From Limosilactobacillus reuteri (GTDB lineage: Bacteria > Bacillota > Bacilli > Lactobacillales > Lactobacillaceae), in the NCBI RefSeq assembly GCF_034259105.1, contig NZ_CP139478.1, forward strand, positions 451,501 through 515,500: a DNA stretch of 64,000 bases, written 5' to 3'. Below, one piece after another: positions 38,780-52,807 of this stretch (position 1 is the first letter of the stretch; the number at the start of each line of letters is the position of its first letter). The notes below the pieces were generated by a model, which saw only the letters and a list, made by a program, of their open reading frames with translations, ran no database searches and was not told the DNA's origin. A program made the translations under genes and the position numbers.

Positions 38780-40688
38780 GTGCGCCCGGCATGGGTATTA
38801 GCTAGGTGGTGAAAGTCCGCTATGGGCCGTAGTAGTCGGAACCATGAGCTGAGGACAAGGGTGTCCACCGTGAGGTGGAATCTGAAGGAAGTCTAAGGCA
38901 AAGTACTGCATCGATGAACAAGAAGTAGCTATAAGGCTGGAATTAACTGGATAAGGCTGCTAGACAAGTTGAAGTCCAATACTACTCGAAGTTAGTCTCA
39001 GTAAAGCTAACGATGACATGGTACGAAAGCTAATATTCTTACCCGGGGAGATCTGGCCTACACGTTTCCGACAAGAGGAATAAGTTTAATTTCCACAGAA
39101 ACAAGCGGTGCAGTGATGCAGTGTTGAGTAAGCCAGAAGTCAGCCGAGGTCATAGTAATTTGAATAATCAGATGAAGGACTGAACGACAATAACTTGTAA
39201 CTTATATCGGAGGTGTAATCAGGTGCGACAATCGCAGAAAACAGAACAACAAGCTGACCGCTTGTCGAGGATAGGCTTGGAAAACCGAAAGTACACAAGG
39301 GCGCGTAGTACCGGTTATGGTGAAGGTAAAGGTATGAGTGTCACTATCCAAGACCTGGTCTTGGATCGCAATAACCTTAATCAGGCTTATTTGCGAGTTA
39401 AGAGAAATAAAGGAGCAGCAGGCGTTGACGATATGACAGTCAATGACCTTCTGCCATATCTCAGAGAAAATAAGACGGAACTGATCGCTAGTTTGCGTGA
39501 GGGCAAGTATAAACCAGCTCCAGTCAAACGGGTAGAAATTCCGAAGCCTAATGGTGGAGTAAGAAGACTTGGAATACCAACGGTGGTGGACCGAATGGTT
39601 CAACAAGCTGTAGCCCAAATTCTTACGCCTATCTTTGAGCGTATTTTCTCTGATAATAGCTTTGGCTTCCGTCCCCACCGTGGGGCCCATGACGCTATTT
39701 CAAAAGTAGTAGATCTTTATAATCAAGGTTATCGAAGAGTTGTCGACTTAGACCTAAAAGCCTATTTTGATAACGTTAATCATGACTTGATGATTAGTAT
39801 CTCCAACAATATATTGATGACCCATGGACACTAAGACTCATTCGTAAGTTTCTAACTAGCGGAGTCTTAGACCATGGGCTTTTCGCTAAGAGTGAAAAAG
39901 GAACCCCACAAGGAGGGCCATTGTCACCACTACTGGCGAACATCTATCTAAATGAGTTGGACGAAGAGTTGACTAGACGTGGTCACCACTTTGTGCGCTA
40001 TGCGGATGATTGTAACATCTATGTTAAAAGTCAACGAGCCGGAGAACGAGTAATGCGAAGCATTACCCAGTTTCTAGAAAAGCGCTTGAAAGTTAAAGTG
40101 AACCCAGATAAAACCAAAGTCGGTAGCCCGCTACGGTTGAAGTTTCTTGGCTTTTCGTTAGGTGTAGACCACAATGGGGCCTACGCCCGTCCAGCTAAGC
40201 AATCGCAACAACGAGTAAAGAAAGCACTGAAGTTATTAACTAAACGTAATCGTGGAATATCTCTGACAAGAATGTTTGAAGAAATTCATCGAAAAATGCG
40301 TGGGTGGCTTCAGTACTACTCAATTGGGAAACTAACTAACTTTATTCAACGCCTTGACAAGTGGTTGAGGGTCCGAATAAGGCAGTATATTTGGAAGCAA
40401 TGGAAAAAGTTTAAAACTAAGGTAACTAACTTACAGAAGTTGGGGCTGTCCCAGCGTGATGCATATGTCTTCGCTAGTACCCGAAAGGGCTACTGGCGAA
40501 CTGCACATAGTAAGACCTTGAGCTATTCTCTAACTAATAGAAAACTGGAACAACTCGGACTTATGAATATGTCCAAGACGCTCCAGTCAATTCAATGTGA
40601 TTAAGTTGTCGAACCGCCGTATACGGAACCGTACGTACGGTGGTGTGAGAGGTCGATAATTGAACTAATCAATTATCTCCTACTCGAT
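38780..40688 (+). mobile_element. Group II intron (class C-like), about 1.9 kb
   Basis: The 5' end reads GTGCGCCCGGCATGGGT, a standard group II intron start, followed by the long conserved domain I region. Near the 3' end a domain V-like hairpin (GAACCGCCGTATACGG..CCGTACGTACGGTGGTG, 40610-40645) and a domain VI hairpin (GATAATTG/CAATTATC) precede CTACTCGAT. The intron sits just past an intrinsic terminator and its RT lacks an endonuclease domain, both typical of class C introns; the class is inferred from these traits. The 3' boundary is uncertain by 1-2 nt. Confidence 0.88.
39223..40604 (+). pseudogene. ltrA: Group II intron reverse transcriptase/maturase, frameshifted
   Basis: The intron-encoded protein is split into 203 codons (39223-39834) and 227 codons (39921-40604). 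Reading continues naturally if one base is restored near 39800: after HDLMIS the downstream frame reads YLQQYIDDPWTLRLIRKFL before TPQGGPLSPLLANI. So a single-base deletion (AGTTAT to AGTAT) explains the break. The RT active site RYADD and the maturase X domain are intact; no HNH endonuclease domain is seen at the C-terminus. The start is GTG at 39223 (SD ATCGGAGGTG). It may be nonmobile unless helped in trans, or the break may be a sequencing error. Confidence 0.88.
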
Positions 40689-50414: not shown

Positions 50415-52235
50415 ATGTGTGGAATTGTTGGAGTTACAGGAACTGACAAGAGTTTGTCAATTCTAATTGATGGATTAAAGCGTCTTGAATATCGTGGATA
50501 TGACTCTGCAGGAGTTTATGTTAATGATCAGCAAGGACATGATTACCTTGTAAAGCGGCCAGGTCGGATTGCTAATCTAGAAGCGGCCCTTGGGGAAGAA
50601 GTTCATGGTTTAGCCGGTATTGGTCATACCCGGTGGGCTACTCATGGTGAACCAAACGAAGCCAATGCTCACCCTCAATACTCTCAAGACGAACGGTTCT
50701 ACTTAGTTCACAACGGTGTAATTGAAAATTATGCTGACTTAAAGAAAGAATACTTATCTGACGTTAAATTTGTTAGTCAAACTGATACAGAAGTAATTGT
50801 TCAATTAGTTGATAAATTTGTTGTTGAATCTGGAATGTCAACAGAAGCAGCCCTCCTTAAGGTTCTTCGTTTAATCAGCCCTGATTCTTCATATGCATTT
50901 GTATTGATGGATAAAGAACAGCCAGATACATTATTTGTTGCTAAAAACAAGAGTCCATTATTAGTTGGGATTGCTGATGGTTACAACATGGTTGGTTCTG
51001 ATGCAATGTCAATGATTAAAGAAACTAATACCTTTATGGAAATCGGTGACCACGAGTTGGTAATCGTTAAGCCAGATCACATTACTGTTAAAGACTTTGA
51101 TGGTAATGAGATTGACCGGCCAACATTTAAGGTTGATATGGATGCTAATGCTGCAGATAAAGGTGCCTACCCATACTACATGTTAAAGGAAATTGATGAG
51201 CAACCAGCTGTTATGCGGAAGTTAGTTCAAGAATACTTTGGTGACAATGATGTAGCACAAATTAATGAAGAGATGTTAAAAGATATGGCAAATGCTGACC
51301 ATCTTTACATCGTTGGTGCCGGTACAAGTTATCATGCTGGCTTAGTAGGTGCGCGCATTTTTGAAAAACTTTGCGGAATTCCTACATCTGTTCATATTTC
51401 ATCAGAATTTGCTTACGAACAACCACTTCTTTCTAAGAAGCCGTTCTTTATCTTCTTAAGTCAAAGTGGGGAAACGGCTGATAGTCGGGAAGTACTTGTT
51501 AATGTTAATAAGCATAACTGGCCAAGCTTAACAATTACTAATGTTGATAAGTCAACGCTTTCTCGTGAAGCAACTTACACTGAATTACTTTACGCTGGTC
51601 CAGAAATTGCCGTTGCTTCAACAAAGGCTTACACTGCCCAAATTGCTGTCGAAGCTATTCTTGCTCAAGCATTGGGTGTCTACATGGATAAGCAAGCAGC
51701 TAAAGACTTTGATGTTAAGCACCAATTAGGATTAGTTGCTAATGGTATGCAATCAATCACTGACAGTAAGAAGAAAGTAGAAGAAATTGCTTCCCGCTAC
51801 CTCTCTAAGTCACCAAATGCTTTCTACATTGGCCGGGGAATGGATTGGTCAGTTTCACTTGAAGCTGCTTTGAAGTTAAAGGAAATTTCATATGTTCAAG
51901 CGGAAGGTTTTGCATCTGGTGAATTAAAGCATGGAACAATTGCTTTAATTGAAGACCAGACTCCAGTGATTGGGATCATTACCCAAGATCGGACTGCTGG
52001 TTTAACACGGAGTAACCTTGAAGAAACGCAAGCTCGTGGGGCAAATGCAATTACAATTGTTTCACGGCACCTTGCAAAAGAAGACGATACATTCGTTCTT
52101 CCCGATGTCGATGAAGTGTTGACGCCACTTCTTAGTGTAATTCCGGCTCAATTATTGGCTTACTACACTAGTCTTGGTAAGGGACTTGATGTTGATAAAC
52201 CACGTAACCTCGCAAAGTCTGTTACAGTTCAATAA
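50415..52235 (+). CDS. glmS: Glutamine-fructose-6-phosphate aminotransferase (isomerizing)
   Basis: A 606-codon enzyme making glucosamine-6-phosphate from fructose-6-phosphate and glutamine. The N-terminal glutaminase domain starts MCGIVGVTG (nucleophile Cys2) with GIGHTRWATHG; two SIS sugar-isomerase domains follow, including SQSGETADSREVL and the C-terminal DKPRNLAKSVTVQ. SD AAAGGATGG. Separate transcript from cdaA-cdaR-glmM but same pathway. Confidence 0.97.
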   Translation: MCGIVGVTGTDKSLSILIDGLKRLEYRGYDSAGVYVNDQQGHDYLVKRPGRIANLEAALGEEVHGLAGIGHTRWATHGEPNEANAHPQYSQDERFYLVHNGVIENYADLKKEYLSDVKFVSQTDTEVIVQLVDKFVVESGMSTEAALLKVLRLISPDSSYAFVLMDKEQPDTLFVAKNKSPLLVGIADGYNMVGSDAMSMIKETNTFMEIGDHELVIVKPDHITVKDFDGNEIDRPTFKVDMDANAADKGAYPYYMLKEIDEQPAVMRKLVQEYFGDNDVAQINEEMLKDMANADHLYIVGAGTSYHAGLVGARIFEKLCGIPTSVHISSEFAYEQPLLSKKPFFIFLSQSGETADSREVLVNVNKHNWPSLTITNVDKSTLSREATYTELLYAGPEIAVASTKAYTAQIAVEAILAQALGVYMDKQAAKDFDVKHQLGLVANGMQSITDSKKKVEEIASRYLSKSPNAFYIGRGMDWSVSLEAALKLKEISYVQAEGFASGELKHGTIALIEDQTPVIGIITQDRTAGLTRSNLEETQARGANAITIVSRHLAKEDDTFVLPDVDEVLTPLLSVIPAQLLAYYTSLGKGLDVDKPRNLAKSVTVQ

Positions 52236-52243
52236 AATTATAA

Positions 52244-52285
52244 AGGAAGTTAGAAACGCTTTAGTTTGTTTCCTAACTTCTTTTT
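52244..52285 (+). terminator. Terminator of glmS
   Basis: GGAAGTTAGAAAC/GTTTCCTAACTTC stem followed by T5. Confidence 0.9.
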
Positions 52286-52333
52286 ATTTTTAAAGTAATT
52301 TGATATTTTATTTAAATTTGTTTAATAAAAGGG

Positions 52334-52365
52334 TTGACTTACATTTATGGAAGCGCTATCATAAT
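52334..52365 (+). promoter_or_regulatory. Strong promoter with perfect cre site
   Basis: TTGACT (52334-52339), 17-nt spacer, TATCAT (52357-52362). TGGAAGCGCTATCA (52348-52361) matches the cre core TGNAANCGNTNNCA at every defined position and overlaps the -10, the classic position for CcpA repression. Confidence 0.85.
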
Positions 52366-52368
52366 AGT

Positions 52369-52450
52369 TGCAAGGTATAAAGTAATTACCTTCTAATCAA
52401 TTCTCTTTCTCTCTTATGCCGATCATCGTCTTTTAGACGGTGATTTTTTT
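52369..52450 (+). ncRNA. Candidate CcpA-repressed small RNA, about 80 nt
   Basis: A transcript predicted from the promoter above to an intrinsic terminator, ATCATCGTC (52422-52430)/GACGGTGAT (52436-52444) plus T7. It contains no ORF with an SD. A pyrimidine-only run of about 15 nt, TTCTCTTTCTCTCTT (52401-52415), lies unpaired between start and terminator and could pair with SD sequences of target mRNAs. The predicted 5' end is about 7 nt after the -10. I do not recognise a known RNA family. Confidence 0.65.
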
Positions 52451-52495
52451 ATTTAAACTCGCTATAATGATAAGGGTTGAAAGGGGAAGAACAAC

Positions 52496-52807
52496 GTGGA
52501 AGAACAACACGAAACGTTAACGTTAATTGAAGAAATTACCCGTAATGACGGCTCAAAATATTATGAAATTGGTAATATGGTTCAAAATGGTCGTGCAGAA
52601 TTAGCGGCTGAACGGAATTTTATTAAAGAGGTTCGTATTTTAGAATTAAATATTCCTCATTCTAAAAATGTTATTAAGTATGAGCACTTTATAAATACTC
52701 ACTATAAGATGCAAACTGAAGCAATGGATCATTGGGAAGAATGGAAGCGTCCCTCAGAGATTGAAGAGGTTGTGCAAACGATCTTAAAAGAAAATCATAT
52801 TGGGTAA
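52496..52807 (+). CDS. Conserved-looking 103-aa protein of unknown function
   Basis: A small, acidic, soluble protein starting with GTG at 52496 (SD AAGGGGAAG). It has a predicted beta-rich first half (LIEEITRNDGSKYYEIGNMV) and a helical C-terminal half with YEHFINTHYKMQTEAMDHWEEW. No signal peptide or membrane segment. I do not recognise its family. A weak promoter -10 (TATAAT near 52463) separates it from the small RNA unit. Confidence 0.7.
   Translation: MEEQHETLTLIEEITRNDGSKYYEIGNMVQNGRAELAAERNFIKEVRILELNIPHSKNVIKYEHFINTHYKMQTEAMDHWEEWKRPSEIEEVVQTILKENHIG

Follow-up and report, generated by a model that had tools for sequence, protein, structure and literature searches.

Two described small RNAs (sRNAs) come closest to the one that we discuss here. 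RsaI (RsaOG) of Staphylococcus aureus is presented, in the passages devoted to it, as an sRNA that is repressed by CcpA and released on glucose starvation, and whose C-rich region acts on mRNAs, pairing with the Shine-Dalgarno (SD) sequences of glcU_2 and fn3K (PMC9266662, PMC8216469). It is conserved in Staphylococcus and, as far as the relevant passage goes, not in Bacilli (PMC8216469). RosA of Bacillus subtilis is depicted in the same source as a stand-alone sRNA that CcpA represses via a site at the start of the RNA, and as a sponge whose G-rich motifs take up C-rich partners (PMC8216469). In lactobacilli, which serve in food fermentation and as probiotics, trans-acting regulatory RNAs are little studied, and a study of L. 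salivarius remarks in one of its passages that non-coding RNA is under-examined in this group (PMC5643018). Here, we provide evidence from sequence comparison that a 64-kb stretch of a Limosilactobacillus reuteri genome (the whole stretch analysed, hereafter the window) carries what is quite probably a stand-alone, CcpA-repressed sRNA gene of about 80 nt, present in many Lactobacillaceae genera, whose linker would pair with mRNAs in trans. In the open PMC literature we came across no paper that could be identified as a description of this RNA, which could be listed elsewhere.

All parts of the locus lie on the forward strand. The promoter consists of a -35 hexamer, TTGACT (52334-52339), and, 17 nt further on, a -10 hexamer, TATCAT (52357-52362), base for base as given in the preliminary description; all 74 loci tested have a TTGAC element at the corresponding distance. 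A predicted CcpA operator (cre), ATGGAAGCGCTATCAT, covers the -10 at 52347-52362, with no mismatch to the consensus WTGNNARCGNWWWCAW. It is the sole perfect match in the window, which holds 15 cre sites with at most one mismatch. From the spacing, transcription would be expected to start near 52369. The predicted RNA opens with a 5' hairpin (52372-52392; arms AAGGTA, 52372-52377, and TACCTT, 52387-52392), continues with an unpaired, near-invariant linker (52393-52420; core TCAATTCTCTTTCTCTCTTATGCC, 52397-52420) that includes a 15-nt pyrimidine run (52401-52415), and ends in an intrinsic terminator (52421-52450) recovered by scan, fold and comparison with relatives. As had been claimed, no SD-led open reading frame (ORF) lies between promoter and terminator. 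Upstream, glmS (50415-52235) is followed by a hairpin and T run (52242-52290, z -4.61), a presumed terminator, so that the RNA unit looks isolated from upstream read-through. Downstream, a TATAAT (52463-52468) is presumably the -10 of a separate promoter for an uncharacterised gene of 103 amino acids (52496-52807), which lies outside the RNA. At the level of sequence, the locus has the make-up of a short transcription unit of its own with an intrinsic terminator at its end, and the predicted transcript folds better than its shuffles (z -3.76). Within the window, however, neither promoter-like sites (5 versus 4.1 expected) nor terminators (1 versus 0.7 expected) exceed chance, so it is conservation that decides whether the gene is real.

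This conservation is deep. A covariance model (R1, built from 33 sequences) finds the RNA in 171 of 350 Lactobacillaceae genomes, which represent 17 of 40 genera, with one copy per genome (E 0.01); one of the 17, genus g37, counts through a single weak match (E 0.006). The 24-nt linker pattern with up to three mismatches occurs in 146 of the same number of Lactobacillaceae genomes, and its reversed control in none. The named L. reuteri locus L165, whose GlmS is 99% identical, places the window in the genus Limosilactobacillus. For this genus, where the preliminary description had suggested a conservation search, BLAST matches 47 of 50 genomes at E 1.1e-6 or better, the weakest match (G026) being partial and missed by the covariance model. 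Two of the three genomes without a match (G011, G022) are incomplete assemblies and the other (G035) is an artefact. In this nominally complete record (loci L340 and L342), the stop codon of one gene abuts the start codon of the next at four of four junctions examined. It looks like coding sequences joined without intergenic DNA, and RNA genes would be falsely absent from it. Beyond the family, a sample of 250 genomes of the class returned only the window's own genome, under stricter filters that weak relatives could escape, and the other families of the order gave 5 one-mismatch linker matches (reversed control, 4), none accompanied by cre, hairpin and terminator.

The exact 18-nt core of the linker occurs at no fewer than 119 loci, that is at least 119, in named genomes. 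By title, 108 of those listed are Lactobacillaceae, from 14 named genera: Limosi-, Levi-, Lactiplanti-, Ligi-, Liquori-, Latili-, Lenti-, Secundi-, Pauci-, Furfuri- and Loigolactobacillus, Pediococcus, Periweissella and Dellaglioa. The constancy of the linker in these loci is by construction, because the scan demanded those 18 letters; cre, hairpin and terminator are independent of the search criterion. None of the 11 listed loci from outside the family (L116, L117, L134, L154, L169, L197, L202, L207, L213, L216, L224) has a cre-bearing promoter of this kind. Setting these aside, together with L156 (short upstream DNA), leaves the 107 loci used below, while the first analyses of cre, linker pairing, terminators and frames used 80 of the 119 listed loci minus L116, L117, L134, L154 and L169. 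The comparison strongly supports a real, deeply conserved family of small RNA genes and, with it, the stand-alone sRNA gene first proposed for the window.

The plan of the RNA is constant: a cre-bearing promoter, a 5' hairpin, an unpaired near-invariant linker (TCAATTCTCTTTCTCTCTT) and a terminator whose letters vary with compensatory changes that keep its pairing. In an alignment of 33 rows chosen by the linker pattern (at most three mismatches) or by BLAST (A2; L071 and L075 left out), 18 consecutive linker columns are invariant across all rows. Over the whole structure, two-sided changes fill 55 cells of A2 versus 19.7 in shuffles, all 55 of them in the terminator; counted as pairs with a two-sided change there are 8, and 94 of 500 shuffles reach that count. 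No such change falls in the 5' helix in A2, and the arms of this helix vary in concert in Periweissella, Pediococcus and genus g18. The linker has a mean predicted unpaired probability of 0.91 (73 loci; lowest locus 0.37) versus 0.55 in shuffled transcripts, which agrees with the earlier placement of the pyrimidine run outside the terminator stem. A script found the terminator in 72 of 75 loci; two of its three misses resemble imperfect long stems and one sits at the end of the stretch. A separate case is L231/L075 (G058, genus g10), where the RNA core is kept but other sequence takes the place of the usual 5' hairpin and promoter; two cre-like sites can be made out by eye farther upstream, which gives the impression of an inserted stretch.

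The operator is conserved along with the RNA. Of the 74 loci examined first, 72 have a cre with at most one mismatch in the 90 nt that precede the linker; the same criterion picks out 12 of 1480 dinucleotide shuffles and, among flank windows, 15 of 1384 (about 1%). Among the matches listed, the figure is 104 of 107 loci, and the remaining three have a cre with two mismatches; of the 104 sites, 83 lie over the -35, 18 over the -10 and 3 off the promoter. Most genera have the cre fused with the -35 (TTGACAGCGCTTACA). The site starts 13 nt further down, over the -10, in the L. reuteri group and Pediococcus argentinicus, and is again over the -35 in L. mucosae, L. coleohominis and P. parvulus; two of the four g18 members lack a clear cre. 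The occurrence of both positions within Limosilactobacillus and within Pediococcus argues for selection on CcpA control, and the moving cre illustrates cleanly how an operator can turn over while regulation stays constant. Conservation and relocation together strongly support the view that the RNA is very probably controlled by CcpA. This part of the proposed CcpA repression stands on the comparison; for its direction, we infer repression because the cre overlaps the core promoter, in the window and in 101 of the 107 loci among the matches listed.

That CcpA activates the RNA instead seems highly improbable. Sites that lie upstream of the -35 do allow activation by CcpA, and three Loigolactobacillus loci among the matches listed have their best cre there, upstream of the promoter, but 101 of the 104 cre sites among those matches overlap one of the two hexamers, -35 or -10, and CcpA bound at such a place competes with RNA polymerase. 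Very unlikely, too, is a CcpA-controlled 5' leader whose terminator attenuates the downstream 103-aa gene. Such a leader would account for the position of this gene, which lies on the same strand within 280 nt downstream of the linker at 94 of the 107 loci among the matches listed (at another six listed loci the retrieved stretch ends within 212 nt). However, the gene is 536-1256 nt away at five of the 107 loci, 0.5 to 1.3 kb separate it from the RNA at three Lactiplantibacillus loci, and at L179 and L195 a match to it lies upstream on the other strand. It also tends to have a -10 of its own: 34 of 71 loci have a perfect TATAAT no more than 70 nt beyond the terminator, versus 246 of 3550 shuffles. 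Moreover, it is present in all 22 further Lactobacillaceae genomes searched (15 genera), and in all 22 the RNA is absent from the 260 nt before it; 19 of them have no R1 match (E 0.01), and the other three belong to g18 and carry the RNA elsewhere, directly behind nagB. All four g18 RNA loci lie behind nagB, and in the three of the four g18 genomes searched for it (the fourth being G260) the 103-aa gene is elsewhere than the RNA. In one of the 22 genomes (L258), a cre-like site with one mismatch lies 255 nt upstream of the 103-aa gene. The terminator, for its part, varies in its letters while linker and hairpin are nearly fixed, so that no conserved antiterminator is apparent. As far as the genomes compared indicate, the RNA does not always precede the same gene, the gene occurs without the RNA and the RNA without the gene; the two appear separable, the RNA does not seem to be simply a leader, and read-through as an ordinary leader is disfavoured. 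The neighbour itself matches no Pfam or NCBIfam family, and its AlphaFold model is confident (pLDDT 91.7), with no PDB entry that matches it convincingly. Ancestrally, the order seems to have been glmM-glmS-nagB-(teichoic-acid ABC gene)-RNA-gene; glmM, glmS and nagB score above the NCBIfam cut-off, and the best NCBIfam matches of the tagH-like protein are teichoic-acid exporters, below the cut-off.

That translation runs through the linker, in a small-protein gene or a dual-function RNA, is extremely improbable. TTATG follows the core in most loci (TTATGCC in 65 of 75; elsewhere for example TTAAAAA or TAAAAAT) and some short frame crosses the linker in 59 of 75, but 58 of these frames have no good SD, 7 of 75 loci lack the ATG, and the core in A2 is as frozen at one codon position as at another. 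The single SD-led ORF across the linker among the 75 loci is at L155 (Ligilactobacillus saerimneri). Here the usual 5' hairpin is replaced, and a good SD and a GTG-ATG open a 34-codon frame through the linker. No start, SD and frame are conserved together, and there appears to be no conserved coding sequence. Also unlikely, though to a lesser degree, is a genuine sRNA that pairs with no mRNA and uses its linker chiefly to bind a protein or, as RosA does, to sequester another RNA. Eighteen invariant letters in the 33 rows of A2 are more than one short mRNA pairing needs, and searches with 14- and 18-nt complements found no conserved target. Against this, the complement of the 18-nt core with 0 or 1 mismatch occurs in 18 genomes only in the RNA gene itself, which argues that no RNA partner of long complementarity exists in them, and we know of no protein partner. 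With up to three mismatches in these genomes, two 3-mismatch strings recur besides the RNA gene, in two genomes each. The 14-nt complement with up to two mismatches is no commoner in 8 genomes than the reversed pattern. Among 22 of these matches inspected, those ahead of genes precede different genes, with one exception in three near relatives, a gene that we take to be peptidase-like.

The preliminary description went further and had the linker pair with purine-rich SD regions, an idea that the window does not bear out: across the start regions of its 53 ORFs, the linker pairs no better than shuffled linkers (-12.7 kcal/mol at start regions versus -8.0 in coding sequence; shuffled linkers -12.6 versus -8.1). 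The same holds for the start regions of hyp, glmS and glmM, and for those of a gene that we take to be galM the linker's score is reached by 29 of 200 shuffles. At 24 nagB start regions the linker beats 194 of 200 shuffles, mainly through Levilactobacillus, a result that is not significant after five genes tested; nagB as a target is at best a weak lead. The Levilactobacillus nagB starts (L127, L139, L166, L171) have purine stretches such as AAGAGAGAAAGG and AAGAGAGGGAGA, with predicted linker pairing of -18 to -22 kcal/mol.

With the stand-alone sRNA gene as the preferred reading, we propose how it works. In the presence of a preferred sugar, CcpA would sit on the cre over the core promoter and block transcription; once the sugar is exhausted, the RNA of about 80 nt would be made. 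The 5' hairpin and the terminator would leave the near-invariant, pyrimidine-rich linker single-stranded, and this linker, by analogy with what the relevant passages say of RsaI, is likely the pairing site (PMC9266662). It may pair with mRNAs, most likely near ribosome-binding sites, altering their translation or stability, and carbon catabolite control would in this way be extended to the post-transcriptional level. It is also tempting to speculate, tentatively, that the RNA is an ancient arm of catabolite control in the Lactobacillaceae. The frozen linker would be an all-purpose anti-Shine-Dalgarno tool used on many mRNAs, and the RNA would have been first placed beside amino-sugar genes (glmS, nagB), on which it perhaps acted, and kept from Limosilactobacillus to Lactiplantibacillus and Pediococcus. 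A near-frozen, single-copy RNA under predicted catabolite control in at least 14 named genera would be an entry point to this subject, with a covariance model at hand and a predicted 5' end.

In Rfam 15, no family reaches its gathering score at the locus, and we judged the weak matches (SpF41, L10 leader, GcvB, PyrR) to be chance. Elsewhere in the window, Rfam matches (D1-D4 and a 3' part) mark a group II intron at 38864-40688. The streptococcal sRNA SpF41 (RF02435), the best weak match over the full length, resembles the RNA in its hairpin, open stretch and terminator, but scores 20.5 bits versus a gathering threshold of 52 and leaves the linker unaligned. No staphylococcal sRNA appears among the Rfam matches up to E 10; RsaOG is one of the families in Rfam. 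As RsaI is portrayed in the passages cited at the outset, the likeness drawn in the preliminary description holds for predicted control logic and layout, and does not extend to detectable homology; RsaI differs in also having G-rich regions for other sRNAs. RosA, as portrayed there, shares the stand-alone gene and the CcpA site at its start, which is predicted here, whereas the linker of the lactobacillar RNA is C/U-rich and, by sequence and fold, the RNA lacks any unpaired G-rich stretch. The RNA would thus be of the same kind as RsaI and RosA, with homology to either undetectable in our comparison. Together, the three lend themselves naturally to comparison as CcpA-repressed RNAs whose origins in Staphylococcus, Bacillus and the Lactobacillaceae may have been separate.
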